Under the pieces are notes generated by a model that made no database searches, was not told the DNA's origin, and was given only the letters and a program-made list of their open reading frames with translations. Shown here one piece after another: positions 1-22,427 of a stretch of DNA of 36,772 bases (positions within the stretch are counted from its first letter, which is position 1; every line of letters starts with the position of its first letter). The position numbers and the translations under genes are program-made. The DNA is taken from positions 1-36,772 of the forward strand of contig JAHFDZ010000025.1 in NCBI GenBank assembly GCA_023248745.1, in the 5' to 3' direction. This DNA comes from Myxococcales bacterium. Its GTDB lineage: Bacteria > Myxococcota_A > Polyangia > Polyangiales > Polyangiaceae.

Positions 1-2650
1 TCCCCTTGACGGGGTCATCGACGTACATGTCGAGCATCGGTCCATTGGAGACAATGACGCGCCGGCTTCGGAGTGAATCGACGATGCGTTCTTCGGTGAG
101 CTTCTGCGTGTCATCCTCGCCCGTGTAAATCATCGTGCGAAACTGACCCGCTTCGTCAAACGACGAGTGCGAATCGCCCGTGCCTACCGCCACGTATTGG
201 TAACCAAGATTGAGCGTATTGAACCAATCGTCGACGGCACCCGGGTACAAGACGTCACCTGTCGAGTCGCGCAAGATTGCGCCCGCAGGTGGAAGATTCG
301 GCGGAAGCTCGCCTGCAGGAAGCTCTCGCGGAACGCGGTAATGATGCAGCTCCCAATACAGCTTGCCGTTGGCGACTTCGACGAGATCGAACTTGAGTGA
401 GAAGGTGGTGCGCCCTCCTCCGTCTCGAAACGCAGGGCCCGTCGGTGCGACAAGGCTTCCGAATGTGGACGGCGCCACCTCCTTAAACGTGAGGGGATCC
501 ACCGAGTATTGCGCGAAGTATCCGAGCACACCGTCGCGCGGGTGATTCACCTGCACGATTGTCTTCTCTTCGCTCAGGCTGCCGAGCTTGCGCAAGTCAC
601 GGAAGATCTCCTCGGGAGTGCGCCGTGCCCACTCGAACGAACCGTGGGTAATCGGTCCGGTTTCGTAACGCAGTGGGTAACCATTGAAGTGGCCGGACTC
701 GAGCGTAGACATCTCGACACCGACCGACGGGAACATCCAGCGATTGAGATTCCATCGCGCGATGCTTGGCGCAAAGTCGGTGACGTAGTTGTGATCGGTC
801 GAGACGACCCATTCAAGTCCTTCAGCGGCGAGTGCGCTCACGCGTTCATCGATCGTCATCGATGAGTCGATGCTGTTGCGGCTGTGGATGTGCGTATCGG
901 CCGCGATCCATCCCACCGTATCGATCTGGCGCTTCAGCTGCTGCGACACCGTTGTGGTGTTGCCGCTCGAAACCGTTACACGCTGAGAAACGAGTTCATA
1001 CTCAGGTCCGCGGCCCACATAGACGTCGTACGTACCAGGGCGAATGGTGAGTTCTGCGATGCCATCGCGCGTGAAACCGACGGCCTCCATGAAGCGCCGC
1101 GTTTCAGGCTTCTCAGGATCGTCGGTCACCAGATCGCTGGATCGGAACGGTTCGCCAGATTGAAGATCGTAGAGGAACGCGCGCGGGTTTCCGCCCGAAA
1201 ATTTGGCGTCATACGTACCTACAACTGTTACCTTTGCAGGAAGCGCGTCGCCAGAAGGCGCCGCGACGCGCACGCTGAGTCTGGCAGGAGGCGGCGAAGC
1301 CGCGACGAGTTCGGTTGTCTCGCCAACGCGAATCGAAAAGTCGGCAAAGTTCGTAATCGGCCGACCTTTCGCGAGGACGCGAAAGCTGTACTCCCCCGGT
1401 TCTAAATTGCCGGCGAAGTAACCCCCGTTGCGAACGTCATATTGACTGAACGGCCGCCTAAAACCGCTCGCTGGGTCGCGCTGAAAAACGATCACGCTCG
1501 TCCCGTCGGCCGGCGCAAACGTTCCTTCATCGAGGACCTGTCCGCTCATGCGGCCCGTCTTGTTCCCGCGTACGGTATTGATCTGATCGACGAGCGAGCC
1601 AACGTCACCGCCGCCAATGAAGAAGTAACGTACCGTTTCAAACGACTCACCCGGTTTCAACTCCGGGGGCGCGTTCTCATAGAAGAGGCCGACGAACGAA
1701 CTTGCCGACAGCACCGTCATGATCGAATGCTTGGTGATCGGCGTGCGACCGCCGTCATCGTAGTAACTTTTCTTGTTCCACGCGTAGTTGCGATCGCTAT
1801 CGCCAAGCGCAAGCGCATAGCTCGTTTGATTGCCACGTGATGCGATGAAGTCGGTCGCGAAGCCGGGAAAGGCCGGCCAATCGATGCCTTTGTTGTAAGC
1901 GTCCTCGAGACCAAAACGCAGATCGAATCCGACGCCAGGGATGAACACTTCGCTCGTGGCACCGTAGAGCGCAACTTCGGCAACAGGGACCGTGAAGCCA
2001 TCGAGCGGAAGGCCAAGGACACCGAGCAGTTGCTGCGCATCCTTGCCGGGGAACATCAGTGTGTCGTTGCTGATGTTCTTCACATTGAACCGCAGCGTGA
2101 GGTGTGAGTCGCCGGGCTTCAATTCGTAACTATTTGTGTAACGAATCTTTGGTGCGCTTTTGGTATTTTGAAAGTCGGCGCTTGACCCCGTGATTGCGCG
2201 GTTGAGTACCGCAAGCATCTCGAGAAAATCTCCCGCGGTACCCGAGGCGTCGATGCGAGCAATTCCATCCTTCGAGCCATCAGAAGCCACCTGCACAGAA
2301 TTGATGTCAGCGGCTTGAAGGAAGAACGCAGGAAAGAGCTCGCCAAAATTGTCAAAGCCCGTCGGTGTTCCGCTCGAGCCTTCTTCGCTTGGCCTTCGCA
2401 GATCGGCATCGATGAGGCTTCCGCCGTAGACACCGAATCCACGAGAAAATCCAGGCTTTTGGATGATCACGCGCACCTTGTCGTTTTCGATGAGGTAATC
2501 GCCGACTTCGCCAAGCGCGCGCTCACCCCCGACGAGATCATGACGTGAAAGCACCATCCGCGCGGTGGCTTGAGGCGCACTTGAACTGCAACCCGGCCAC
2601 GCCGCAGCGACGATGAATGCGAGAACAACAGAACCGACAAGACGCTTCAT
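1..2650 (-). CDS. PHP-domain metallohydrolase (CehA/McbA-like) lipoprotein, 3' end outside the window
   Basis: The minus-strand frame is open from an ATG at 2650 to the left edge, about 883 codons with no stop, so the C-terminus is missing. The N-terminus is a signal sequence followed by a cysteine at residue 21 (WPGC then Ser-rich), a weak lipobox. Residues up to about 560 are mostly beta-type sequence, including a stretch like carboxypeptidase-regulatory repeats. The catalytic PHP part begins at about residue 580: THIHS near 583, STDHN near 616, VNHPRDG near 701 and GTGDSHSSFD near 825. These His/Asp clusters are the metal-binding signature of PHP phosphoesterases, and the arrangement matches CehA/McbA-type metallohydrolases. 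It starts 15 bases after the porin stop, so it is the last gene of the operon. The substrate is unknown; a phosphoester or other ester is likely. Fold and metal dependence are well supported; the exact reaction is not. Confidence 0.85.
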   Translation of the reverse strand, partial: MKRLVGSVVLAFIVAAAWPGCSSSAPQATARMVLSRHDLVGGERALGEVGDYLIENDKVRVIIQKPGFSRGFGVYGGSLIDADLRRPSEEGSSGTPTGFDNFGELFPAFFLQAADINSVQVASDGSKDGIARIDASGTAGDFLEMLAVLNRAITGSSADFQNTKSAPKIRYTNSYELKPGDSHLTLRFNVKNISNDTLMFPGKDAQQLLGVLGLPLDGFTVPVAEVALYGATSEVFIPGVGFDLRFGLEDAYNKGIDWPAFPGFATDFIASRGNQTSYALALGDSDRNYAWNKKSYYDDGGRTPITKHSIMTVLSASSFVGLFYENAPPELKPGESFETVRYFFIGGGDVGSLVDQINTVRGNKTGRMSGQVLDEGTFAPADGTSVIVFQRDPASGFRRPFSQYDVRNGGYFAGNLEPGEYSFRVLAKGRPITNFADFSIRVGETTELVAASPPPARLSVRVAAPSGDALPAKVTVVGTYDAKFSGGNPRAFLYDLQSGEPFRSSDLVTDDPEKPETRRFMEAVGFTRDGIAELTIRPGTYDVYVGRGPEYELVSQRVTVSSGNTTTVSQQLKRQIDTVGWIAADTHIHSRNSIDSSMTIDERVSALAAEGLEWVVSTDHNYVTDFAPSIARWNLNRWMFPSVGVEMSTLESGHFNGYPLRYETGPITHGSFEWARRTPEEIFRDLRKLGSLSEEKTIVQVNHPRDGVLGYFAQYSVDPLTFKEVAPSTFGSLVAPTGPAFRDGGGRTTFSLKFDLVEVANGKLYWELHHYRVPRELPAGELPPNLPPAGAILRDSTGDVLYPGAVDDWFNTLNLGYQYVAVGTGDSHSSFDEAGQFRTMIYTGEDDTQKLTEERIVDSLRSRRVIVSNGPMLDMYVDDPVKG

Positions 2651-2665
2651 GACGAGCCCCGTTCG

Positions 2666-3904
2666 CTAGAAAACAACCTGCGCCATTGCCTCAAACCGAT
2701 TGTTGTCGAGCGCGCGCGCAGCCGGCTCGACCGTAAACGTGTAGTTGAGCCAAAGAGCAAGCGGCAGCCTCTCGCCGCGCAGCCTCACGCCCACCGTATG
2801 ATAGTCCACTTTGAAGGCGTCGTAGTCGAGCCCCGCCGAGGAGCCTGTGCCGGCCCATGGGTGATAATGCGCATACCGATAACCCGGTGTGATGTGGATG
2901 TACGGAGCCTCGAACGTGTAGCCAAGCTGAGCGTGATAGGCCTGCTTGGTCTGCGCGGCACTGCCTACCGTCGGAAATGTAGTCTTAATTTGCACAAATT
3001 GGCCGAGCGCTTCGAATCCCTTCACTTTGACGGCTACGTCCGCCGAAAAGCCGAGATCGTCCTCGTCGTAGAAGCTGGGCGCAATGCCGACAGTGCGAGG
3101 ATTGTAGACCATGCCACCACCGAGCCTCACGTAGCTGCCATAGTTCAACTCCAGGCGACCGATGAACCCCACCTTGCTGTTGTCATCGAGCATCTGGTTC
3201 GCGCCGTTGCCGTTCATGAGCATCGCGTAGTACGCGACCTGCAATTCACCGCCGAGTTTGATCGGTTTTGCCGGCGAGAGCATGACACCAAGTTGACGAT
3301 CGAGCGCGACGCCAGCTTGTTGGAACCCGCGACCGACTAGTACACCTTCTTGACCAACAGCACGCGTCGCAAAGAGCATGTCCTGCGTGCCTCGGAGTTC
3401 TTCCTCTGCGAACGCGGCTTTGAATTGGCCGAGTTGAATACCAATGAACGGCATGGGATCGTAGCGGATGAACGCATCGCGGAGCCGAAAATCGAGATAG
3501 CCGAGCGGCGTGTTAACACCCTGCTGGATGTCTGACGCGCCTTCTGCGGCGATACGGAAGCTCACGTGGTAGTCGGTATTTCCGCCTTCGAGACCCACGC
3601 GCGCACTCTCGAGGATAAATCCGTTGTTCCGGCCGACGAAGTTGTAGCGCGAGTCTTTCTGCACATTTTCGTAGCCGGCGCGGACGTAGCCGTAGACGCC
3701 AACTTCCCACGGGGACTTAGGCTCCTCTTTCGCCGCTTTGGGATCGACCTTTTCAGGATTGTTCGGATCCTTGGCGGGCTCGCTCTTCTTTCCGTCGCGC
3801 GTCTTGCGCATATCGGAAAGGCCTTCTCCGTCACGAGCGGCATGAGCGAGCGTTGAACATAGGCAAAGCGAGAGGGCCCCAAACGCAACGCGGCGTGTTT
3901 TCAC
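2666..3904 (-). CDS. Outer-membrane porin, phosphate-selective porin O/P-like
   Basis: The 412-residue product has a Sec signal peptide (residues 1-22, cleavage after AHA), then a Lys/Glu/Pro-rich linker (about 35-65), then a beta-barrel-type sequence with alternating hydrophobic residues that ends in Phe (AQVVF), as outer-membrane barrels do. Segments such as VGVYGYVRAGYE, a RLRDAFIRYDP strand, and QLGQFKAAFAEEEL resemble porins of the O/P family, where a conserved G-Q-x-K motif follows an early strand. The start codon overlaps the stop of the upstream HupE-like gene by four bases (ATGA), so translation is probably coupled. Its place between a HupE-type transporter and a PHP hydrolase suggests it passes a small solute or metal complex across the outer membrane; that role is inferred. 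The barrel call is firm, the substrate unknown. Confidence 0.8.
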   Translation of the reverse strand: MKTRRVAFGALSLCLCSTLAHAARDGEGLSDMRKTRDGKKSEPAKDPNNPEKVDPKAAKEEPKSPWEVGVYGYVRAGYENVQKDSRYNFVGRNNGFILESARVGLEGGNTDYHVSFRIAAEGASDIQQGVNTPLGYLDFRLRDAFIRYDPMPFIGIQLGQFKAAFAEEELRGTQDMLFATRAVGQEGVLVGRGFQQAGVALDRQLGVMLSPAKPIKLGGELQVAYYAMLMNGNGANQMLDDNSKVGFIGRLELNYGSYVRLGGGMVYNPRTVGIAPSFYDEDDLGFSADVAVKVKGFEALGQFVQIKTTFPTVGSAAQTKQAYHAQLGYTFEAPYIHITPGYRYAHYHPWAGTGSSAGLDYDAFKVDYHTVGVRLRGERLPLALWLNYTFTVEPAARALDNNRFEAMAQVVF

Positions 3905-4875
3905 TTTCGGATCATCGCATCAACGCGCATCAGGGTGAAGTACGCACCGAGCGATCCGACCGTGTATCCCACCCACATCGGGAGACGCTGTATCACGCGC
4001 GCTCGCACCGGCGAGATCCGTACGAGAAACGCGACTGTGACAAGCAAGAAAACAAATCCGAGCTGCCCAACTTCGACGCCCAAATTGAACGAAAGAAGCG
4101 CTGTCAGCAATTGTGACTTAATGAGGCCAATTTCGCGAAGGCCGGATGCAAAGCCCAACCCATGCACGAGGCCAAACGCAAACGCGAGAGGCACCAACCG
4201 ACCCCCTCGTGTCCTTGCGACATCGATCCCAAGTAGCACGAGACTGAGGCCGATCCACACTTCAGCAAGCGCAGGTCTTATTGAAACGAATCCAAAGCTT
4301 GCAAGCGCAAGAGTGATCGAGTGCGCCACGGTAAATGCGCTAATCGCAACGACAAGCTTCTTTCGGTTTTCGGCAAGAACGTAGAGCCCCATCACGACGA
4401 GTAAGTGATCAACTCCAGTAACAATATGCCGAGCGCCAATGCTGATGTAGCGACGAATCACGTCGCCGCGATCGTCTTTCTGGGGAAGCTCAACTTCGGC
4501 ACGTGAAGGACCAAGCACGGTCGAGAACACTTCGTCGTTCTCCCAGCTCACATCGACAACCGCGAGCGAGACCGACCCACCGAGGCCGCGCATGCTGACC
4601 GCACGGCCACGAAGGGTACGCGCGCAATGGAGATCGAAGTGCTGTGAGAATTGCGAGAGCGCCGAAGCGGCCGTTGGTTGTGCGATCGTTTGGCAGTCTT
4701 GTGGAAAAACTGGAACTGCATCGGCGGCGCCGGAAGGGACGCGAAAGCTAACACTGTAGCGCGTGTCGCTCAGCGCGATGATGCGCAATACGGCCGTGGT
4801 GGGTCCATGGGCGAGCACAACGAGTGGCCATGAAATCGCGAGCAAGAACGCCAGCCACGAAAAGGCCCGTTTCAT
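3901..4875 (-). CDS. HupE/UreJ family membrane protein
   Basis: The 324-residue product has a signal peptide (about 1-22, ending LAHG), a periplasmic N-terminal domain (about 23-140) and a C-terminal block of about six transmembrane segments. The membrane part carries the family's polar motifs: HIVTGVDHLLV (His150, Asp156, His157), FTVAHSITLA (His185), FGLVHGLGFA (His238) and FNLGVEVGQ (Glu268). In the HupE/UreJ family these His/Asp residues resemble nickel/cobalt-permease metal sites, so metal uptake is plausible but not shown. The long soluble N-terminal domain is typical of the larger HupE/UreJ_2 type rather than short hydrogenase-linked HupE. No hydrogenase or urease gene is visible nearby. 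It overlaps both neighbours by four bases (4872-4875 and 3901-3904). Confidence 0.85.
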   Translation of the reverse strand: MKRAFSWLAFLLAISWPLVVLAHGPTTAVLRIIALSDTRYSVSFRVPSGAADAVPVFPQDCQTIAQPTAASALSQFSQHFDLHCARTLRGRAVSMRGLGGSVSLAVVDVSWENDEVFSTVLGPSRAEVELPQKDDRGDVIRRYISIGARHIVTGVDHLLVVMGLYVLAENRKKLVVAISAFTVAHSITLALASFGFVSIRPALAEVWIGLSLVLLGIDVARTRGGRLVPLAFAFGLVHGLGFASGLREIGLIKSQLLTALLSFNLGVEVGQLGFVFLLVTVAFLVRISPVRARVIQRLPMWVGYTVGSLGAYFTLMRVDAMIRK

Positions 4876-5723
4876 GGTGATGGTTGCCAGCGAAGGCCCT
4901 CGGGCAACTTAATGCGGTATCGCCCGACCGCTGCGCCTATCCACGATCGTTCACGAACTTGACCACGTTCGCGCACCCAATCGGCCAAGGCAAACTCGCG
5001 CGCCTCCGCGAACGACGCCGCACGTGACGCTTCGCGCTCTTGCACGCGAACGAGATACGAACCAAAGGCGCTGCTCGTGGGGCCTTCCCACGTCTTGAGC
5101 GGCGCCGAAAATGCAACGTCGGCGACGGTTGGCCCAAGCACTTGGGAAAGTTCGCGATGGGTGATCCACTTTGGCGAGCGTGTGAGATTTGCGATCTCAC
5201 CGAGACCTTCTAGCGAACGGTTCGGCTCGCGATCGAGTTGCTCTTTCAAGGTGACAAGCTCGCTCGGACCCGCGTCGTGGCGATCGACTGCGTAGTAGAC
5301 ATAGTCAATCTTGACCCGCGCTTGCGCGCTGTAGCGGTCCTTGTGCTCGCCAAAGTAGCGTTCGAGCACCTCGTCATTCGGCGGCTCCGCAGCACCACGA
5401 GCAACGGCACGTGCGCGATCGATCAAACGCTTTCGCACGGCTTGATCGTCGTCAGCCAAGCCCAATCGTAACGACTCGCGATACATGATCTCGTCGCTGA
5501 GATGCCGGTCGAGAAGGGCACCTTGTTCTTCCTTCGTTGGAGCGCGCGTGAGGCTTCGCTCTTCGGCACGAAGCAAGTCCGACCACCGTTGCTCCGAAAG
5601 CGCGATGGTGTCGTCACTGCCTGTCGGATCGCGGGGCAGGACCACCGCAAGGAGGGCACCAATCACCATAAAATGGATCAATGGCTCCTTCAAAAGCGCA
5701 TGAACGGACGTACGAACCGACAC
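4872..5723 (-). CDS. Membrane-anchored peptidyl-prolyl cis-trans isomerase (SurA/PpiC-like)
   Basis: This is the first gene of the four-gene operon (283 residues, GTG start at 5723). After a short N-terminus with LLKEPLIHF, a single hydrophobic segment (about 15-30) anchors the protein in the inner membrane. The periplasmic part begins with a SurA-like helical region (about 35-125, rich in Arg/Glu/Leu, including RHLSDEIMYRESLRLGL), followed by a parvulin-like domain (about 130-240, with ARVKIDYVYY and a terminal FGSYLVRVQERE strand). The N-terminal layout matches the PpiC-type isomerases commonly annotated beside HupE/UreJ proteins. A likely job is folding or delivery of the porin and PHP lipoprotein encoded in the same operon; this is inferred from position. 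The parvulin domain is divergent, so catalytic activity is uncertain. Confidence 0.78.
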   Translation of the reverse strand: MSVRTSVHALLKEPLIHFMVIGALLAVVLPRDPTGSDDTIALSEQRWSDLLRAEERSLTRAPTKEEQGALLDRHLSDEIMYRESLRLGLADDDQAVRKRLIDRARAVARGAAEPPNDEVLERYFGEHKDRYSAQARVKIDYVYYAVDRHDAGPSELVTLKEQLDREPNRSLEGLGEIANLTRSPKWITHRELSQVLGPTVADVAFSAPLKTWEGPTSSAFGSYLVRVQEREASRAASFAEAREFALADWVRERGQVRERSWIGAAVGRYRIKLPEGLRWQPSP

Positions 5724-5901
5724 GCGTGAACGATATCAGGCTTCCCCACCCCCGCTGGAATGTGACTCTCAATGGCCCCGAGACCACGTTTGTGCGTGTT
5801 CCACATTGACATCTCCCGCCAATGTCGATTCGCACGCGGCTGAAGGGAACCGGAGGCACGATTGATTTGCTAACCGCGCCGGAGCCGAGTGACGATGCGC
5901 G
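5724..5901. promoter_or_regulatory. Divergent intergenic region with possible promoter and inverted repeat
   Basis: These 178 bases separate the minus-strand PPIase operon from the plus-strand lipoprotein gene, so they should hold two divergent promoters. A perfect TTGACA lies at 5806-5811, but I see no good -10 at 16-18 bases downstream. It overlaps an inverted repeat, ACATTG (5803-5808) and CAATGT (5820-5825), that could be an operator. The assignment is weak. Confidence 0.25.
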
Positions 5902-7125
5902 ATGGCAAAATCTCTTTCGACGGCGATCGCCGTGTTCGCCTTGGTCGCCGCTTGTCGTTCCGACGTGAATGCACAAGTGCAAGACGCCGCAGTCGATGCG
6001 CAAGCTTCCGTCGATGCGACAGCGAACCCAGACGTAGGTGCGGGCGACGCCGTGACGTCGTGGGCTTATCCGATGGGGTTCTTTTACCAAACCGTTGGCC
6101 TCCAAAATCAGGTCCGCGTCGGGTGGACTCACGACGGCACAACGGTCACGAGTTCGGGGAGCGACTACGCGCTGTCATGGGGCGTGATTGGGAAGAATGT
6201 CACGTGGGCCGATCCCGTCATGAGCTACTTGAAGAACGGTACCTACGCGACCACCGCTGGCACGTTTGATCAGGATCCACGCGGTGCGGCGATGTTCATG
6301 TACCACGAGACGACTTGCCCTCGGTCGGGTCCCGCTCCAGAAGCTGCGGCCGTGAAGGTGATCACACCGAAATCACACGCGAGCGATGCGCTGTGCAAGC
6401 AAACCGACAACGTCGTCGGTGGCAAAGGGTCGCGCATTTTTGACATCGATGGCAGTAACTACATGTTCATCTCGAACCAAGGCACGATGTACCTCTTGCG
6501 GATGACCAACGGGTCATCTACCGGTTCGCCGGATGCGATGTGCTTCCTTGAAACAGCGGTGACCAAGGTATCGTCTTTGCGTGTTGGCGATGCGACTCCA
6601 GTGGTTCCGATTGGCACTGTGGGTGCTGTCGCGAGCGGGACCGATGGCCTGGTGTTCGGGGACGCAGGCATTATGCGACGGACCGACGGAACCTGGGTCC
6701 TCATCATGAAGGGCTTCCCAAAAACGTTGGCCGATGGACACCAATGTCATGACCTCTGCGAACTCTGCAACCGCGGCATCTATCGCGCCACGAGCAAGGA
6801 CCTACTCACTTGGTCTGCGATTGATCGCATTGCATTTCGCGCGAGCGTTCCCGAGGCAGCGGTCGACCCCACAGGAAGGCCATGGGTCTACTACCAGGAC
6901 TTTGGTGCGGCCTGCGATGCGCAGAACCTTCAACTTGCCGGCCGTGCGCACATCAGCGCGATTTCAGAGCTCGACCTTTCGGGAACGATGTCGACGCCGA
7001 CACATGTTGTCTTCACCGGACAGTCATTCGAGAAAGACGAGCAAGAGCACTATCCCACCAACGGCAACCCGGTCATGCTTTCGGGCCCCGACGCGTTCTC
7101 GCAACTGCAAAGCTGCAAACCATAG
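5902..7125 (+). CDS. Predicted lipoprotein, possible beta-propeller, function unknown
   Basis: The 407-residue product starts with a clear lipoprotein signal: hydrophobic residues 4-17 and the lipobox LVAAC with Cys18. An Asp/Ala/Val-rich linker follows (about 20-50). The remainder has repeated motifs such as SRIFDIDGSNYMFIS, GIMRRTDGTWVLIMKG, GIYRATSKDLLTW and GRPWVYYQDFG. This pattern of an aromatic/Asp strand followed by a 'trader' loop resembles five-bladed propellers of the glycosidase 43/32/62 type, but I cannot point to a full catalytic triad. A CHDLCELC cysteine cluster in the middle may form disulfides or bind metal. The ATG at 5902 is chosen because it is directly followed by the signal. 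The gene stands alone between a divergent operon and a convergent GFA gene. Outer-membrane location is likely; function is unknown. Confidence 0.75.
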   Translation: MAKSLSTAIAVFALVAACRSDVNAQVQDAAVDAQASVDATANPDVGAGDAVTSWAYPMGFFYQTVGLQNQVRVGWTHDGTTVTSSGSDYALSWGVIGKNVTWADPVMSYLKNGTYATTAGTFDQDPRGAAMFMYHETTCPRSGPAPEAAAVKVITPKSHASDALCKQTDNVVGGKGSRIFDIDGSNYMFISNQGTMYLLRMTNGSSTGSPDAMCFLETAVTKVSSLRVGDATPVVPIGTVGAVASGTDGLVFGDAGIMRRTDGTWVLIMKGFPKTLADGHQCHDLCELCNRGIYRATSKDLLTWSAIDRIAFRASVPEAAVDPTGRPWVYYQDFGAACDAQNLQLAGRAHISAISELDLSGTMSTPTHVVFTGQSFEKDEQEHYPTNGNPVMLSGPDAFSQLQSCKP

Positions 7126-7665: not shown

Positions 7666-8538
7666 GTGCTTGTGACCGAGGGTGTTTTGGCCTATCCGTC
7701 AACTTTGTTGCCGACACCACTCTCCTACCGCGAACACCTGCCGCACCCGATGCTGCGGCCATTCGTGCGCTGCGTGTGGGAACTTGCGGGTGATTCACAG
7801 GTGAGCGAGCCTCAGGTCATTGTCCCTGATGGCTGCACCGAGCTTGTCCTCAATTTGGGCGATCCTATCGAGCAACTGATTGGAGTTGCGGGTTCTCTTG
7901 CCCAACCACGCGTAACCGTTGTCGGCGAAATACGTCGCCCGGTGGTTACATTAACAACGGGCCGTATCGATCTGTTGGGCGTCCGATTCCTGCCCGGTGG
8001 GTTGCAACCCTTTATCAGCACGCCCATCGGTGAAATCGTCGATCGCATCGAGGCTCACGACGACGTGCTTACGCGTGCGATGCGAGAAACGATCGCGCGC
8101 GTACAGAACGCATGCATTGCGGACCGCCTCGAACTTCTCGAAATCGGCCTCATCGACACATTACAAAAAGCGAAACGACTGGACAACGCGCTCACGCGAC
8201 GGGTTGTGCGTGCCCTGATGGACCATGAAGGGTGCATTCGAATGGAAGCGCTCGCAGAAGAATTTGGCGTGACGCGCAGACACATCGAACGCGCATTCGC
8301 GCTCGGCGTTGGCGCTTCGCCGAAATCGCTCTCGCAAGTGCTCCGATTTCGTCGTGCGCTTGTCGCGATCGAGAATGAGGACGAGCACTGGACCGATGTC
8401 GCAGAAGCATGCGGCTACTACGATCAGTCGCACTTGATCCGCGATTTTAGGCGCTTCGCCGGCTCCACGCGGAGCACTTACTTACGTTCAAACCACCCGC
8501 TCAACGGCCTATTTCATGGCATCGTGACCGCAACGTGA
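7666..8538 (+). CDS. AraC family transcriptional regulator
   Basis: The 290-residue protein has an N-terminal ligand or effector domain (about 20-150) of the type seen in DUF6597 regulators, with VPDGCTELVLNLGD and VRFLPGGLQPF, and a C-terminal AraC-type double helix-turn-helix (about 190-280). The DNA-binding part contains MEALAEEFGVTRRHIERAF for the first helix pair and a WTDVAEACGYYDQSHLIRDFRRFAG stretch for the second, the classic AraC signature. The GTG at 7666 is taken as start; a second GTG two codons later is equally possible and there is no strong ribosome site. The gene is divergent from the GFA gene, which may be its target. Confidence 0.88.
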   Translation: MLVTEGVLAYPSTLLPTPLSYREHLPHPMLRPFVRCVWELAGDSQVSEPQVIVPDGCTELVLNLGDPIEQLIGVAGSLAQPRVTVVGEIRRPVVTLTTGRIDLLGVRFLPGGLQPFISTPIGEIVDRIEAHDDVLTRAMRETIARVQNACIADRLELLEIGLIDTLQKAKRLDNALTRRVVRALMDHEGCIRMEALAEEFGVTRRHIERAFALGVGASPKSLSQVLRFRRALVAIENEDEHWTDVAEACGYYDQSHLIRDFRRFAGSTRSTYLRSNHPLNGLFHGIVTAT

Positions 8539-8588
8539 TGTCGCATTTTTCCAATACGCGGCGTGCGTTCGCGATCAGGGTTGCGCGC

Positions 8589-9422
8589 ATGAAGCTCTCA
8601 TCTATTTTGGTTCTTAGCGTTTCGGCTTGTGCACCGGCAGCTTCTACTTCGACGTCGAGTCCCGAAGACGCTCGAGCAAAAGAGCCCAATGCGAACGACG
8701 ACGCGATCGCAGTTACCGGCGGCACCTTTCGAATGGGATCGCCTGACACGGAAAGCGGCCATGATCAGGACGAAGGCCCAACGCTCACGCTCACGATCGC
8801 CCCATTTCGAATCGACCGCAGCCCTGTTTCGACGGGAGCGTTTGAGGCTCACATGAGCGAAGTGCTCGCACGCGATTCTCTCTCGAAGTGGTACGCCGAA
8901 ACCGATACGCCCGCTTCGTGGCTGGGCAAGTGCAACGTTGGCTCACAGCGCGGTGACCATCCCGTCAATTGCGTCAACTGGAATGCAGCGCGCGCCTACT
9001 GCCAAGTTCGCGGCGGCGACCTGCCGACGGAAGCCGAGTGGGAATATGCAGCACGAGCCGGTACCACCACTTCGTATTGGTGGGGCACTGCATACGAGGC
9101 CGGACATAGCGTCGACTCTGCGTCGTGCAAGACGCGAGGCTGCCAAGGATCAACGGCGCCCATCGCGTCGGCCGGCCCACGCTGCAACGCGTGGGGAATT
9201 TGTGACATCATCGGTAACATTTGGCAGTGGACGCTGACAGACTACCGTGAGCATCTCGACGACGCTGTTTCGATTATCGCTCCGCAAACACCCAAGAAGC
9301 CCGTCCATCGAGGCGGCGCCTGGCTCGACAACGTAACGACACTCTTTCGCTCAGCGCAACGTGGCCTCAACTATCCAGAGCACGGACTCACCGGCGTCGG
9401 CTTTCGCTGCGTACATCGGTAA
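8589..9422 (+). CDS. SUMF1/FGE-domain lipoprotein, probably not a formylglycine-generating enzyme
   Basis: I place the start at ATG 8589 rather than the in-frame codon at 8535 because this puts a lipoprotein signal at the N-terminus (lipobox SVSAC, Cys14) and avoids overlap with the AraC gene. The product (277 residues) is one formylglycine-generating-enzyme (SUMF1) domain: GGTFRMGSP, PVNCVNWNAARAYC, LPTEAEWEYAAR, GNIWQW, HRGGAWLDN and a final GFRC. In true FGEs two cysteines that bind copper follow the RGGSW segment. Here that segment reads WLDNVTTLFRSAQRG with no cysteine, so oxidase activity is unlikely. Many such domains serve as binding or structural proteins. No sulfatase gene is in the window. 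Confidence 0.85.
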   Translation: MKLSSILVLSVSACAPAASTSTSSPEDARAKEPNANDDAIAVTGGTFRMGSPDTESGHDQDEGPTLTLTIAPFRIDRSPVSTGAFEAHMSEVLARDSLSKWYAETDTPASWLGKCNVGSQRGDHPVNCVNWNAARAYCQVRGGDLPTEAEWEYAARAGTTTSYWWGTAYEAGHSVDSASCKTRGCQGSTAPIASAGPRCNAWGICDIIGNIWQWTLTDYREHLDDAVSIIAPQTPKKPVHRGGAWLDNVTTLFRSAQRGLNYPEHGLTGVGFRCVHR

Positions 9423-11613: not shown

Positions 11614-12584
11614 CTATCGAATCCACCGGGCCCGCAGCATATCGGCAGCTTCTTCGGGACTTGTCGCTCGCGCGCGAAGGGCTTCCGCAAGCTCGCCCGC
11701 CAATTCGGTAACGGAACGATCTGCGCGAAACTCGGCAATCAACCGCTGCTCGGCGATGCGCCACGTGGACAGCATGGCCTGCCCTGCCCGCTGAGCATCG
11801 ATCCAAGCCCCTTGCTCCGAAAAGAAGCGATTTATGAGTGCGTCCAATTCGTCAAGTCCCTCACCTGTCAAGGAACTTGCCGTCACAACTGGAGCGCTCC
11901 AACGCGAATTTTTTCGTGGGGCGTAACGCAATGCAGCTTGCAACTCGGCCTTTGCGACTTGCGCTCGCGTAAGGTTGTCACCGTCGCACTTGTGCACGAG
12001 CACGGCGTCGGCGAGTTCAAAGATGCCTTTCTTGATGCCCTGCAATTCGTCACCAGTACCCGACACCGCGAGCACCAAGAAGAAGTCGACCATCTCGGCC
12101 ACAGACACTTCGGACTGCCCGACGCCAACGGTTTCGACAAACATCCACTCGTATCCGGCCGCTTCGCAGATGAGCATTGCCTCGCGCGTTCGTCGTGCAA
12201 CGCCACCCAGCGCAAGGCCACTGGGCGAAGGCCTCACGAACGCATTGGGGTGCGCGCTCAAGTAGGGCATGCGCGTTTTGTCGCCAAGGATGCTGCCACC
12301 GGAAACGACACTTGTTGGATCCACCGCGAGGACGGCAACATGGGCGCCGCCGTCGAGCAACCGCTGCCCCCATGCGTCGAGCAGCGTGCTCTTACCAGCG
12401 CCGGGAACGCCGGTTACGCCAATGCGGCGTGCCTTGCCCGTATCGGATGCGAGCGCGCGCAGAACCTCTCGCGCAACTTCACGATCGGCTTCGTTCGTGC
12501 TCTCAACTAATGTAACAGATTTAGCTACAATTGAACGATCGCGCGCGCGTATGCCGTCGACATAACGTGCCACTGAAAGTGTGC

Positions 12585-12588
<4 letters not shown>
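11614..12588 (-). CDS. meaB: Methylmalonyl-CoA mutase-associated GTPase MeaB
   Basis: MeaB protects and reloads the B12-dependent methylmalonyl-CoA mutase using GTP hydrolysis. The 324-residue product has the family's normal length. Motifs in order: Walker [10 protein letters not shown] (about 60-68), the VDPTS segment (about 90-94), DKTRM (about 103-107), FVRPSPSG (about 117-124), and [10 protein letters not shown] (about 151-160). The base-recognition motif, usually NKAD in this family, reads HKCD at 199-202, followed by the usual GDN; His in place of Asn is unusual. The start overlaps the mutB stop by four bases (12585-12588), so it is the third gene of the operon. Identification is secure; the effect of the His is unknown. 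Confidence 0.95.
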
Positions 12589-14707
<2,119 letters not shown>

Positions 14708-14711
<4 letters not shown>

Positions 14712-15691
14712 CGCGTCACTCCATCAATCGCCGCTTCGCAGGTCCATTCCATGCTCTGCGGATCGGCAACCCCAAGCACCGATGTTGGATAGCCGCCGAG
14801 CTTTTCGGGATCGCGATCGACGAACGCCGTGATGCCCGTTACGTTCAGCGCTCCCGAACGGATTAACTTCGTTCGCTCTGCGATATCAGCGTCGCACAGA
14901 GCATGAAGCGCACCCGATGCATGAAACGCCGCGTATCCGCCCGCACTATCGATGCGCTCAAGAATGGCCCACGCGTGACGCAAGAGCTGACACGAGAGCG
15001 CCTCGATCGCGAAGCTACCATGCGCGGGATCTTTAACTTTTGCGAGCTGTCCTTCATGTTCAATCAAGCGACGCACATTGTGAACCATGCGCCGGCCAAG
15101 TTCAGACTGAGGTCGATAGCCAATATCGAAAGGCACAAGCACAACATCGTCTGCGCCGCCCACTATCGAAGCGAACGCCACGTGTGCGTTGCGAAGGAGA
15201 TTCACCCATGGTTCGCGCAACGTAAGCGCCGGTGAAACACTGGTCGCAATGATGTGCGCCCACTTTGGCGTTCGCTTGCGAAGCACTTGAAGCTTGGCCC
15301 ACCCCAAACGAAGCGCACGCAGCTTGGCAACCTCGGTCCAAATGTCGGACCCAATTGACACTTCGAATGTTACATTTGAGTCCCTGTCAGACCATGCGTC
15401 GGCCGACGCGAGATGCATCGCGAGTTGCAGCGCCGGTCCGATGCCAAATCGGGCGAGTCCTTCATCGAGAGAAGCACGTGCAGGCGGGAGGGCACTGAGG
15501 TCAGCGGGAGGGCGCGGCTCTACGATCAGCGCGTGTGCTTCTTTGGCCAAAATTACATCCGCATCGGAGAGCGATGTGTGGAGCGCCTCTCTGCGCGTTC
15601 CGCCAAGGAGGCGCTTGATCATCACGTCATCAAATGAGGCGCCGTCGATCTCTTTTTCAACGGCGGCTTTCCACGCTGCGAACGAAGTCAT
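14708..15691 (-). CDS. mutA: Methylmalonyl-CoA mutase small subunit, strongly shortened
   Basis: The first gene of the operon encodes 327 residues, about half the usual small subunit (roughly 600 or more). The N-terminus ([19 protein letters not shown], then [13 protein letters not shown]) matches the small-subunit docking segment. After about 75 residues the sequence passes into the second half of the TIM barrel: [45 protein letters not shown], a [13 protein letters not shown] segment and LDRIDSAGG-like [11 protein letters not shown]. The first half of the barrel and the whole B12 domain are absent. The frame is intact and its stop overlaps the mutB start, so this is a stable short form rather than a broken gene. 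It cannot be catalytic and probably stabilises MutB. Confidence 0.85.
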
Positions 15692-20855: not shown

Positions 20856-22427
20856 ATGCGCGCCATGGCCGACAAAGGTACGCACTCGCACCTCGGTCCA
20901 ATTTCGTTCGCAGCAATGCTCGTTCTCGCACCGGCGTTGAGTACATACGGCGTCTTCGAGGCGCGAGCAGCGCTCAGTCTTCCTGCATCGACGTTCGTTC
21001 CGCTTCCTGCCGAGCACGACAAGGCTGCAACGCACGGGATGAAAACATTGGTCATTTTACTTGACGGTCTCCGTTCCGACGTCGCGCATGCGCTGCCCAA
21101 CCTGAACGCGATTGCCGCAAGAGGCGCCGAGACTGAGATCGAGATCGTTCCACCCACGATTTCGTCGCCTCAGTACGTTGCCTTTCTCACCGGGGTCGCA
21201 CCCGCAGATTCTGGCGTGCGATCGAACAGCGGCCTCTACCGCATCGCGCTCGATAACGTCGCATTGCGTGTGCAGCAAGAACACGCCGGCATCACGCTCG
21301 AAATCGGCGATGACGTCGATTGGTGGAAGACGATGTTTGGCCCCTCGTTCAACGAGGCGCTTCTTGTAAAGCCCGCAGAGCTTCTCACGACCGCAAAGAC
21401 CAAACTGCGATCGATCGAATTTGGCTTGGTCCATCTTTGCGCCGTCGACAATGCGGGCCATGAACACGGCGCATCGGGACCGGAATACGCTGCAGCGGCG
21501 CACGAAGTCGACGAAGCTACCCTCGTGCTCGCCCAAACGTGGGGATGGCCAAACGTCAACTTGGTTGTCATTTCTGATCACGGTCACAGGCCAAAGGGGG
21601 GCCACGGCAGCGACGACCCCGACGTTCGTTTTACGCGCATGATCGTAAGCGGCGGTATGGCGAAACGCGCAGCAACAGCCATGGGCGCACGATCGATCGA
21701 TGTCGCACCCACGCTTGCGGCACTTCTCGGCGTCAGTGCACCCGCCCAAGCCCAGGGACGTTCGCTCAACGAACTTTTAGACGTCGATGATGGGCAGAAG
21801 AACGCACTCGCACAAAGCGATAGTGCGCGCCTAGCCCGGATTGAGCCCTCGCTACAGCATGGCCGAGCACTGGCAGCGAAGAGAGAGCGTCGCGAACAAA
21901 TCCTACGCGGCGCAGTCCTTACAATCGCGCTCGCGATCGTCGCTTCGCTCAATTGGAAACGACGCATTGCGGTGGCAGGTCCGTTCGCTTTGGGATTCTT
22001 ACACCTCGCGCTTACCGTCGCGACGTACGGAGCGTCGTTCGGCGCCCTCTCGTTCGCGGCGGCGAGACTCAGTACGCTCCTCGTCCGAGACGTTGCGCTC
22101 TTCTCGTTCGGTTGGACGATCGTCCTTGGGGTCGCAACATATCGACACTGGACGCGAGCCAAGAGAGAGCAACTGTTGGCCGCCGCAACGTGCGCCAGTC
22201 TGGGTGCGGGCGTGCTCGCCTGCGCGAGTTTCGTATGCGCAGGCGTTTCATCAAGCCGCTTTACTTTTTCGCCTGCCTGGGTGGCAGCAGCACCCCTGGT
22301 GAGCTTCGCGAGCTATGCCGCGTTCGCCGCAGGTGCGCTAGCGCTCGTCGTCGGCCGCGAAGGCGTGCGCGCCTGGCGTGAGAAGACGCGCCTCAGTTCG
22401 ACGTCACAAGTAACTCCACACCCATGA
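20856..22427 (+). CDS. Membrane-anchored alkaline-phosphatase-superfamily enzyme, GPI-phosphoethanolamine-transferase-like
   Basis: The 523-residue protein has an N-terminal hydrophobic segment (about 15-40), a periplasmic catalytic domain and a C-terminal block of about four to five transmembrane segments (about 355-510). Metal-site motifs of the alkaline phosphatase superfamily are present: VILLDGLRSD (Asp70), PPTISSPQYVAFLTG (nucleophile Thr101 or Ser103), VDNAGHEHG (Asp198, His202), and VISDHGHRPKGGHG (Asp241, His242, His250). The spacing and the late DHG...GGHG motif resemble type I phosphodiesterases and the PIG-type GPI ethanolamine-phosphate transferases. The natural substrate, possibly a lipid or glycan phosphodiester, is not visible. 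Its 3' end overlaps the 3' end of the convergent DUF1624 gene by 24 bases. Confidence 0.82.
   Translation: MRAMADKGTHSHLGPISFAAMLVLAPALSTYGVFEARAALSLPASTFVPLPAEHDKAATHGMKTLVILLDGLRSDVAHALPNLNAIAARGAETEIEIVPPTISSPQYVAFLTGVAPADSGVRSNSGLYRIALDNVALRVQQEHAGITLEIGDDVDWWKTMFGPSFNEALLVKPAELLTTAKTKLRSIEFGLVHLCAVDNAGHEHGASGPEYAAAAHEVDEATLVLAQTWGWPNVNLVVISDHGHRPKGGHGSDDPDVRFTRMIVSGGMAKRAATAMGARSIDVAPTLAALLGVSAPAQAQGRSLNELLDVDDGQKNALAQSDSARLARIEPSLQHGRALAAKRERREQILRGAVLTIALAIVASLNWKRRIAVAGPFALGFLHLALTVATYGASFGALSFAAARLSTLLVRDVALFSFGWTIVLGVATYRHWTRAKREQLLAAATCASLGAGVLACASFVCAGVSSSRFTFSPAWVAAAPLVSFASYAAFAAGALALVVGREGVRAWREKTRLSSTSQVTPHP

Follow-up and report, generated by a model that had tools for sequence, protein, structure and literature searches.

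PpiD, PrsA and SurA are periplasmic parvulin chaperones. HupE/UreJ_2 permeases, like the proteins of the DUF3604 family, are common, but their functions are obscure. In 2025 the HupE/UreJ-2 proteins Ang-1 and Ang-2 were described as metal-capture proteins and called anglerases (PMC12537917). According to that work, the N-terminal histidine domain of a HupE/UreJ-2 protein binds copper (Kd 74 nM) and nickel (220 nM), the Ang domain is an Ig-like beta sandwich (PDB 9GCE), the transport direction proposed by the authors is uptake into the cytoplasm, and the gene neighbors named are DUF4198, indigoidine A-like and PfkB (PMC12537917). The terms isomerase, PPIase and DUF3604 did not turn up in the available main text of the same paper (PMC12537917). 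CehA needs four His residues (PMC8292978), and the available text on Sb-PDE of Sphingobium sp. TCM1 describes an exported PHP phosphodiesterase with 2.1 Zn that is probably secreted through Sec (PMC5460133).

The window, that is, the whole stretch of 36,772 nucleotides that was analyzed, is an entire contig (G000:C29). Four genes on its reverse strand encode a membrane-anchored PpiC/parvulin-like protein of the Rotamase_2 family (PPI, 283 aa, 4872..5723), a HupE_UreJ_2 permease whose N-terminal domain is non-cytoplasmic (HupE, 324 aa, 3901..4875), a Porin_O_P-like outer-membrane beta-barrel (412 aa, 2666..3904) and a predicted CehA/McbA-type PHP metallohydrolase lipoprotein (2..2650), which is cut off at the contig end and of which 883 aa are present. 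The ORF coordinates agree with the arrangement given in a preliminary description of this DNA, with overlaps of 4 bases between PPI and HupE and between HupE and porin and a gap of 15 bases between porin and PHP, and profile searches assign the proteins to Rotamase_2, HupE_UreJ_2, Porin_O_P (matched over the N-terminal part only) and PHP together with CarboxypepD_reg. The accompanying remark that no Ni enzyme is nearby is correct locally but not genome-wide, as a urease alpha subunit is encoded on another contig; no NiFe-hydrogenase was found in the window's genome. A scan of positions ~5000-6300 gave no sigma-70 promoter or terminator.

The HupE matches PF13795, the family that includes the anglerases, with 133.4 bits against a cut-off of 24.5 (E 7.3e-39) and PF04955 with an E of 2.1e-6, and a PDB sequence search with it returned no match to PDB chains and no solved close relative. 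It has features of a metal permease, in line with the metal-like His/Asp motifs of the preliminary description. The HX5DH motif (residues 150-157, 4405..4428, reverse strand) has invariant His, Asp and His columns in the HupE alignment A1 and occurs in 167 of the 173 HupE ORFs. By inspection, His23 (codon 4807..4809, reverse strand) is the candidate first mature residue after ...VVLA, which would place it at the position of the anglerase mono-histidine brace, as judged from the sequence, the HupEs of relatives and the biochemistry available for relatives (PMC12537917). The remaining four-gene HupEs that could be read have the candidate His at the same position, and a candidate N-terminal His is found in 102 of the 115 PPI-linked HupEs, some of which have Asp as the candidate first residue instead. 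Cytoplasmic uptake, as proposed in the available anglerase text (PMC12537917), would not alone load an enzyme that is folded outside.

The PPI scores 43 bits against the rotamase profile PF13145 (cut-off 27, E 9.7e-11), and its active-site position, which lies towards the C-terminus of the domain, was surveyed across homologs by a simple motif match, to which all of the following counts refer. The window PPI has Tyr (SAFGSYLV) at the place of the usual parvulin active-site His, and the four other readable four-gene PPIs have Tyr or Trp there. The His is kept in 64 of the 68 readable HupE-linked PPIs of the multi-phylum set and in 19 of the 22 readable linked PPIs of the phylum set. Because Tyr replaces the active-site His, the earlier label of foldase is safer than that of isomerase, and the window PPI is probably a non-catalytic chaperone.

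The barrel ends in Phe and matches PF07396 with 26.1 bits (cut-off 20.9) over residues 69-215 only and is a putative member of the phosphate-selective porin O/P family; this porin adjoins PHP in nearly all relatives. The PHP fragment scores 92.2 bits against NF038032 (CehA/McbA, cut-off 80) and a full-length relative 115.7 bits. Relatives have about 1110 aa, of which the window copy is without the ~227 aa that lie beyond the contig end, and the architecture comprises a lipobox Cys21, a mutarotase-like N-terminal domain, a transthyretin-like domain and the PHP domain. In the 20 sequences of alignment A2 (numbering of the first sequence) Cys21 is invariant, as are H587, H589, H620, H654, H703, D826 and H828, and the HxH ... 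DH ... H ... DxH ligands are invariant or nearly so; the span from HxH (587/589) to DxH (826/828) corresponds to 167..892 (reverse strand). The PHP ligand set of this predicted lipoprotein is complete. PDB sequence searches with the hydrolase families identified no solved close relative, and the model of an 89%-identical relative aligned with 2anu (Z 17.2, rmsd 2.9, 193 residues) and 3e38 (Z 17.0). The window hydrolase gave no PF12228 (DUF3604) match in the profile search.

The preliminary description had proposed a search for conserved gene order, with scattering of the four genes in related genomes as the sign of a chance arrangement, and this search showed that the genes are not scattered. 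HupE is directly upstream of porin-PHP in 10 of the 11 porin-bearing members of the window's family (the window's genome, G255, G313, G344, G372, G366, G374, G360, G041 and G227). The PPI was confirmed in six of the seven HupE-porin-PHP loci whose contigs extend to its position; the G360 match, with an E of 9e-5 and a strong bias in composition, is weak and was left out of this count. The four genes are a real, conserved operon and not a chance arrangement. The restriction of the four-gene order, as far as observed, to the window's family is what would be expected from a single ancestral joining kept by descent in one family, an explanation that we disfavor as highly improbable: the order persists in three genera at porin identities down to 42% and PHP identities down to ~54%, the starred branches of the HupE tree require the four-gene state to have been gained or lost two times or more, and in other phyla PPI-HupE is found with an independent partner of the PHP fold.

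HupE and PPI show ~30% identity among relatives and diverge much faster than porin and PHP, and they are therefore not tightly co-adapted by sequence; in the HupE tree the four-gene HupEs do not group as a single clade. Porin-PHP pairs with no PPI-HupE beside them occur in many genomes across the class. Faster evolution of PPI and HupE and their absence from the lone porin-PHP loci fit a scheme of nutrient scavenging without metal coupling, in which an organic phosphate or ester is acquired through porin and hydrolase, and PPI and HupE are co-transcribed envelope housekeeping genes, each contributing to fitness on its own. We regard this scheme as quite unlikely, since the repeated occurrence of PPI-HupE beside PHP-fold hydrolases in many phyla is unexpected for independent housekeeping genes. 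Conserved linkage does support the original idea of one four-part unit, but this unit is better seen as the joining, in one family, of two older modules, porin-PHP, which is class-wide, and PPI-HupE, which is far wider.

The neighbor counts for PPI-HupE come from profile searches of all six-frame ORFs and cover profiled families only; simple longest-ORF gene calling mis-called many genes in GC-rich loci. The PPI adjoins HupE in 31 of the 82 HupE loci sampled across the phylum, with DUF3604 in most of those 31. In the multi-phylum set, which was retrieved with PPI-linked HupEs, the PPI is beside HupE in 78 of 80 loci and DUF3604 is present in 56, with no adjacent porin of the window kind in the DUF3604 loci. 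Most PPI-linked HupEs belong to one supported clade (98, starred) of the HupE tree. HupE_UreJ_2 was found in 34 of the 36 strong-DUF3604 genomes, leaving two without it, versus 42 of the 76 others (Fisher p 1e-5, phylogeny-uncorrected). Annotated plasmid records carry the same PPI-HupE-DUF3604 trio, and the window's own genome has it at a second locus on C70, so HupE and a PHP-type hydrolase do neighbor each other elsewhere, a point on which the preliminary description had made its proposal depend. One PPI-HupE locus, on a plasmid, has CobW GTPases and DUF1826 alongside; both are absent from all other surveyed loci, and a zinc link through them was dropped as a general feature.

DUF3604 and the window hydrolase are placed in the same PHP fold because realignment, motifs and profile comparison agree: the DUF3604 model matches 3e38 with Z 15.7 on realignment, as well as other PHP proteins, and profile comparison with the window-type hydrolase gives an E of 3e-4 (Foldseek alone gave an E of 0.011 for 3e38). 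Some PPI-HupE pairs have no PHP enzyme with them and lie, for instance, beside a NosD-like beta-helix protein and a diheme cytochrome, and PHP is therefore not the sole partner of the pair. As a pair, PPI-HupE is older than the four-gene unit and is repeatedly a neighbor of exported hydrolases with the PHP fold, widely of the DUF3604 type and here of the CehA/McbA type. The PPI-HupE-DUF3604 cluster was identified in this analysis, and our literature search found no publication on it. The full-text search returned no paper linking DUF3604 with HupE, mention of DUF3604 only in Chlamydia mutant work, and nothing under the HupE UreJ name or PF13795, slashed spellings being outside its reach.

This pattern suggests that the envelope has a metal or maturation system that is as yet unstudied. 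Our tentative reading, to which we give a little less than an even chance, is that the operon encodes an envelope system whose inner-membrane pair handles metal for, and matures, the co-encoded exported PHP-fold hydrolase. The linkage of the genes is observed, and the metal, the direction of transport and the substrate are inferred. The PPI-HupE pair would act on the outer side of the inner membrane, where HupE would capture a transition metal and supply or balance it for the newly exported hydrolase, and the PPI, probably as a non-catalytic chaperone, would hold or fold the emerging hydrolase (or the barrel). The PHP lipoprotein would then move to the outer membrane and cleave an ester-type substrate bound via its sugar-binding-like domains, with the barrel passing substrate or product. 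Weighing against this reading are the cytoplasmic direction proposed for anglerase uptake, the PPI-HupE pairs that have no PHP partner, the two strong-DUF3604 genomes that have no HupE_UreJ_2, the porin-PHP pairs that stand alone, the fast divergence of HupE and PPI and the lack of a single clade of four-gene HupEs.

The same genes could instead serve metal acquisition, the surface hydrolase cleaving a metal-binding or phosphorylated organic ligand, the porin admitting the product, HupE importing the freed metal into the cytoplasm and the PPI merely folding envelope proteins. The uptake direction proposed in the available anglerase text (PMC12537917), the putative O/P family membership of the porin, the presence of canonical HupE genes (PF04955) at 7 of the 80 PPI-HupE loci and the one CobW-DUF1826 locus are consistent with acquisition. 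We nevertheless consider it somewhat unlikely, given that CobW and DUF1826 are confined to that locus among those surveyed, that neither a metal-responsive regulator nor a regulatory site came to light and that the DUF3604 loci do not have such a porin adjacent. Returning to metal handling and maturation by the PPI-HupE pair, a broader form, which is speculative and in our judgment rather unlikely, would make the pair a general bacterial envelope metallation system, in which a permease that captures metal by histidine and a chaperone bound to the membrane jointly load transition metal into newly exported metalloproteins, chiefly PHP-fold hydrolases (DUF3604, CehA/McbA) and, in some bacteria, proteins of the beta-helix/diheme-cytochrome kind. 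The cross-phylum neighbor rule gives the anglerase-type permease, the foldase-like protein and the exported PHP-fold hydrolases each a testable partner, and it would raise the question of how metal is supplied to Sec-exported metalloenzymes outside the cytoplasm.

Compared with chaperones of the PpiD/PrsA/SurA type, the window PPI likewise has a PpiC-type domain that is anchored in the membrane and, by prediction, faces the periplasm, but it is bound to one operon and its catalytic His is replaced. Sb-PDE and the window hydrolase are both exported PHP-superfamily hydrolases, and Sb-PDE has all PHP motifs; it differs in being a zinc-containing protein with a 441-aa precursor, for which the available text describes no HupE, PPI or porin partner (PMC5460133). 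The carbaryl and carbofuran hydrolases CehA/McbA (NF038032) are similar in that the window PHP is above the family cut-off and has the HxH...DxH ligand set, whereas the window type, with ~1110 aa, has mutarotase-like and transthyretin-like domains and a co-encoded outer-membrane barrel. The PPI-HupE-DUF3604 cluster has the same pair in the same order on the same strand with an exported PHP-fold hydrolase, while the window has a CehA/McbA-type hydrolase, an inserted porin and a PPI minus its active-site His. As far as the available text on Ang-1 and Ang-2 goes, the window HupE resembles them as a PF13795 permease with an N-terminal extracytoplasmic domain, a candidate His right after the signal peptide and conserved His/Asp in the membrane part, and it differs in its neighbors, which are DUF4198, indigoidine A-like and PfkB for the anglerases and the PPI and a PHP-fold hydrolase here (PMC12537917).

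The window is the whole of contig G000:C29 (36,772 bases; G000 is the window's own genome), and four co-directional genes on its minus strand run from position 5723 to the contig end. These encode a membrane-anchored parvulin-like protein (PPI, 4872-5723, Rotamase_2), a permease (HupE, 3901-4875, HupE_UreJ_2), an outer-membrane barrel (porin, 2666-3904, partial match to Porin_O_P) and a CehA/McbA PHP metallohydrolase (PHP, 2..2650), which is cut by the contig end and lacks about 227 residues in comparison with its relatives. PPI/HupE and HupE/porin each overlap by four bases and 15 bases separate the porin from PHP; the ORF coordinates and the Pfam/NCBIfam families together confirm the arrangement that the preliminary description had reported. 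Elsewhere the contig carries ordinary genes: a sulfatase-modifying-factor-like protein (8535-9422), a methylmalonyl-CoA mutase/MeaB cluster (11614-15691) and a type I phosphodiesterase-family protein (20856-22427).

We searched the window porin and hydrolase against 289 genomes of the class and then read the loci. The proposal that these genes form one unit is borne out by relatives, as ten genomes of three genera in one family have HupE immediately upstream of porin-PHP (the window's and G255, G313, G344, G372, G366, G374, G360, G041 and G227). The contigs of G255, G041 and G227 stop within HupE, placing the PPI position out of reach; in the seven loci extending past HupE, PPI was confirmed in six and is doubtful in G360. 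Across fully read loci, identity to the window falls to 42% (porin) and about 54% (PHP), and therefore the gene order has outlasted much divergence. The four-gene arrangement is real and conserved. Among the 11 family members carrying this porin, G370 alone is without HupE_UreJ_2 at that place, where a different membrane-anchored protein stands (L181, 2813-4243; its sequence combines a signal-like segment and GGHGEPGRG with an EF-hand-like DLSGDGLLSGNE, plus a single membrane segment at the C-terminus). In G344 (L176, 7181-9782) a stop or frameshift breaks the PHP gene, as a pseudogene or an assembly error.

Beyond the family the porin-PHP pair is kept in many genomes, and neither PPI nor HupE was found upstream of it among the loci of class genomes examined; the operon is therefore the union of two modules, PPI-HupE and porin-PHP. 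A looser second HupE-PHP link occurs in the distant family f12, where, in 7 of 11 genomes (L113, 6970-14601, and related ones), a HupE without PPI shares a contig with a porin-like/CehA-type PHP pair and stands 3-11 kb from it; in the locus that was read, other genes separate the two.

PPI-HupE is the older module. The window's own genome has a second pair on contig G000:C70 (L003, 4045-8245), followed by a DUF3604 lipoprotein-like gene. In a phylum sample of 82 HupE_UreJ_2 loci, to which most genomes contributed one or a few, PPI stands by HupE in 31, most of them with DUF3604. Among the sampled genomes, HupE_UreJ_2 is present in 34 of the 36 that have strong DUF3604 and in 42 of the other 76 (p 1e-5, with no correction for phylogeny). 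Some genomes of the sample are highly multicopy for DUF3604, with as many as 43 first-look candidates, and have far fewer genes for HupE_UreJ_2. A named-genome scan, seeded with PPI-linked HupEs and hence biased towards such loci, yielded 80 loci, found in Pseudomonadota, Bacteroidota, Verrucomicrobiota, Gemmatimonadota, Acidobacteriota, Cyanobacteriota, Planctomycetes and other groups; PPI adjoins HupE in 78 of them, and DUF3604 occurs in 56. The PPI-HupE-DUF3604 trio is also named independently in public plasmid annotation. On a plasmid of Rhodobacteraceae SC52 (L298, 2873-10915), DUF3604, a canonical HupE, PPI and HupE_2 adjoin two CobW GTPases and DUF1826, an indication that this organism has a transition-metal gene cluster there. 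In the HupE tree one supported clade (98*) holds most PPI-linked HupEs and some without adjacent PPI. Five rows linked to PPI/DUF3604 and one linked to PPI only lie outside it; the four-gene HupEs fall within the clade, yet do not form one group.

In alignments, the window-type hydrolase and DUF3604 both retain the ligand motifs of PHP proteins (HxH, DH, H, DxH). The model of the former (a relative 89% identical to the window protein, mean pLDDT 81) matches PHP structures, 2anu with Z 17.2 and 3e38 with Z 17.0; in its N-terminal part it is similar to galactose mutarotase and glycosidase beta-supersandwich domains, and a transthyretin-like domain comes next. For DUF3604, the model (mean pLDDT 66, better in the core) likewise matches 3e38 best (Z 15.7), ahead of other PHP domains, and the two profiles align over the C-terminal half of each (E 3e-4, probability 40%). 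PPI-HupE therefore adjoins exported hydrolases of two distinct families that share a single metal-dependent hydrolase fold, the strongest argument for a functional link between the pair and the hydrolases. Cys21 of the hydrolase, in a lipobox-like setting, is invariant across the 20 sequences aligned. The four-gene-type hydrolases (loci L174, L175, L177-L180, L184, L185) have a His-rich C-terminal tail, such as RLGHLHGGHGE, that is missing from most porin-PHP homologues of distant families.

HupE carries HX5DH at residues 150-157, and its His23 immediately follows a signal-like stretch that ends in VVLA; the other readable four-gene HupEs have a candidate His at that position. In a recent paper on this family, an N-terminal His of this kind makes up a copper/nickel site; the domain that carries it is extracytoplasmic and fused to the permease. 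Its authors name such proteins anglerases and suggest that they capture metal and take it up (PMC12537917). The main rival reading is a metal-acquisition unit with HupE as importer. In the window's membrane-anchored PPI and its readable four-gene relatives, Tyr or Trp occupies the position that in most linked PPIs is the parvulin active-site His, so from sequence a chaperone role seems likelier than isomerisation. The reading we prefer is that the system probably works in hydrolase export: PPI and HupE would work on the outer side of the inner membrane as the hydrolase is exported, HupE taking care of a transition metal and PPI of the unfolded chain; the mature lipoprotein would then pass to the outer membrane and act with its barrel on a possibly sugar-linked ester substrate. 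Gene linkage, motifs and folds are observed here; anything about the metal, the direction in which it moves or the substrate is inference. The earlier idea of a metal-supplied hydrolase stands as a reasonable hypothesis. The pair can have cargo other than PHP hydrolases, as in some Gammaproteobacteria a NosD-like beta-helix protein comes next, plus a diheme cytochrome where checked. The former replaces DUF3604 downstream of PPI-HupE in loci L253, L265 (TIGR03805), L283 and L288; the cytochrome is SO2930-type (TIGR03806) in L265, and sequence similarity indicates the same for L283 and L288.

Text searches of the main text of the anglerase paper (PMC12537917) turned up neither PPIase nor isomerase nor DUF3604, and a PPIase-HupE pair tied to exported PHP-fold hydrolases across phyla appears to be undescribed in the searchable literature. 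This cross-phylum link is the wider finding, and is of more interest than the single operon.
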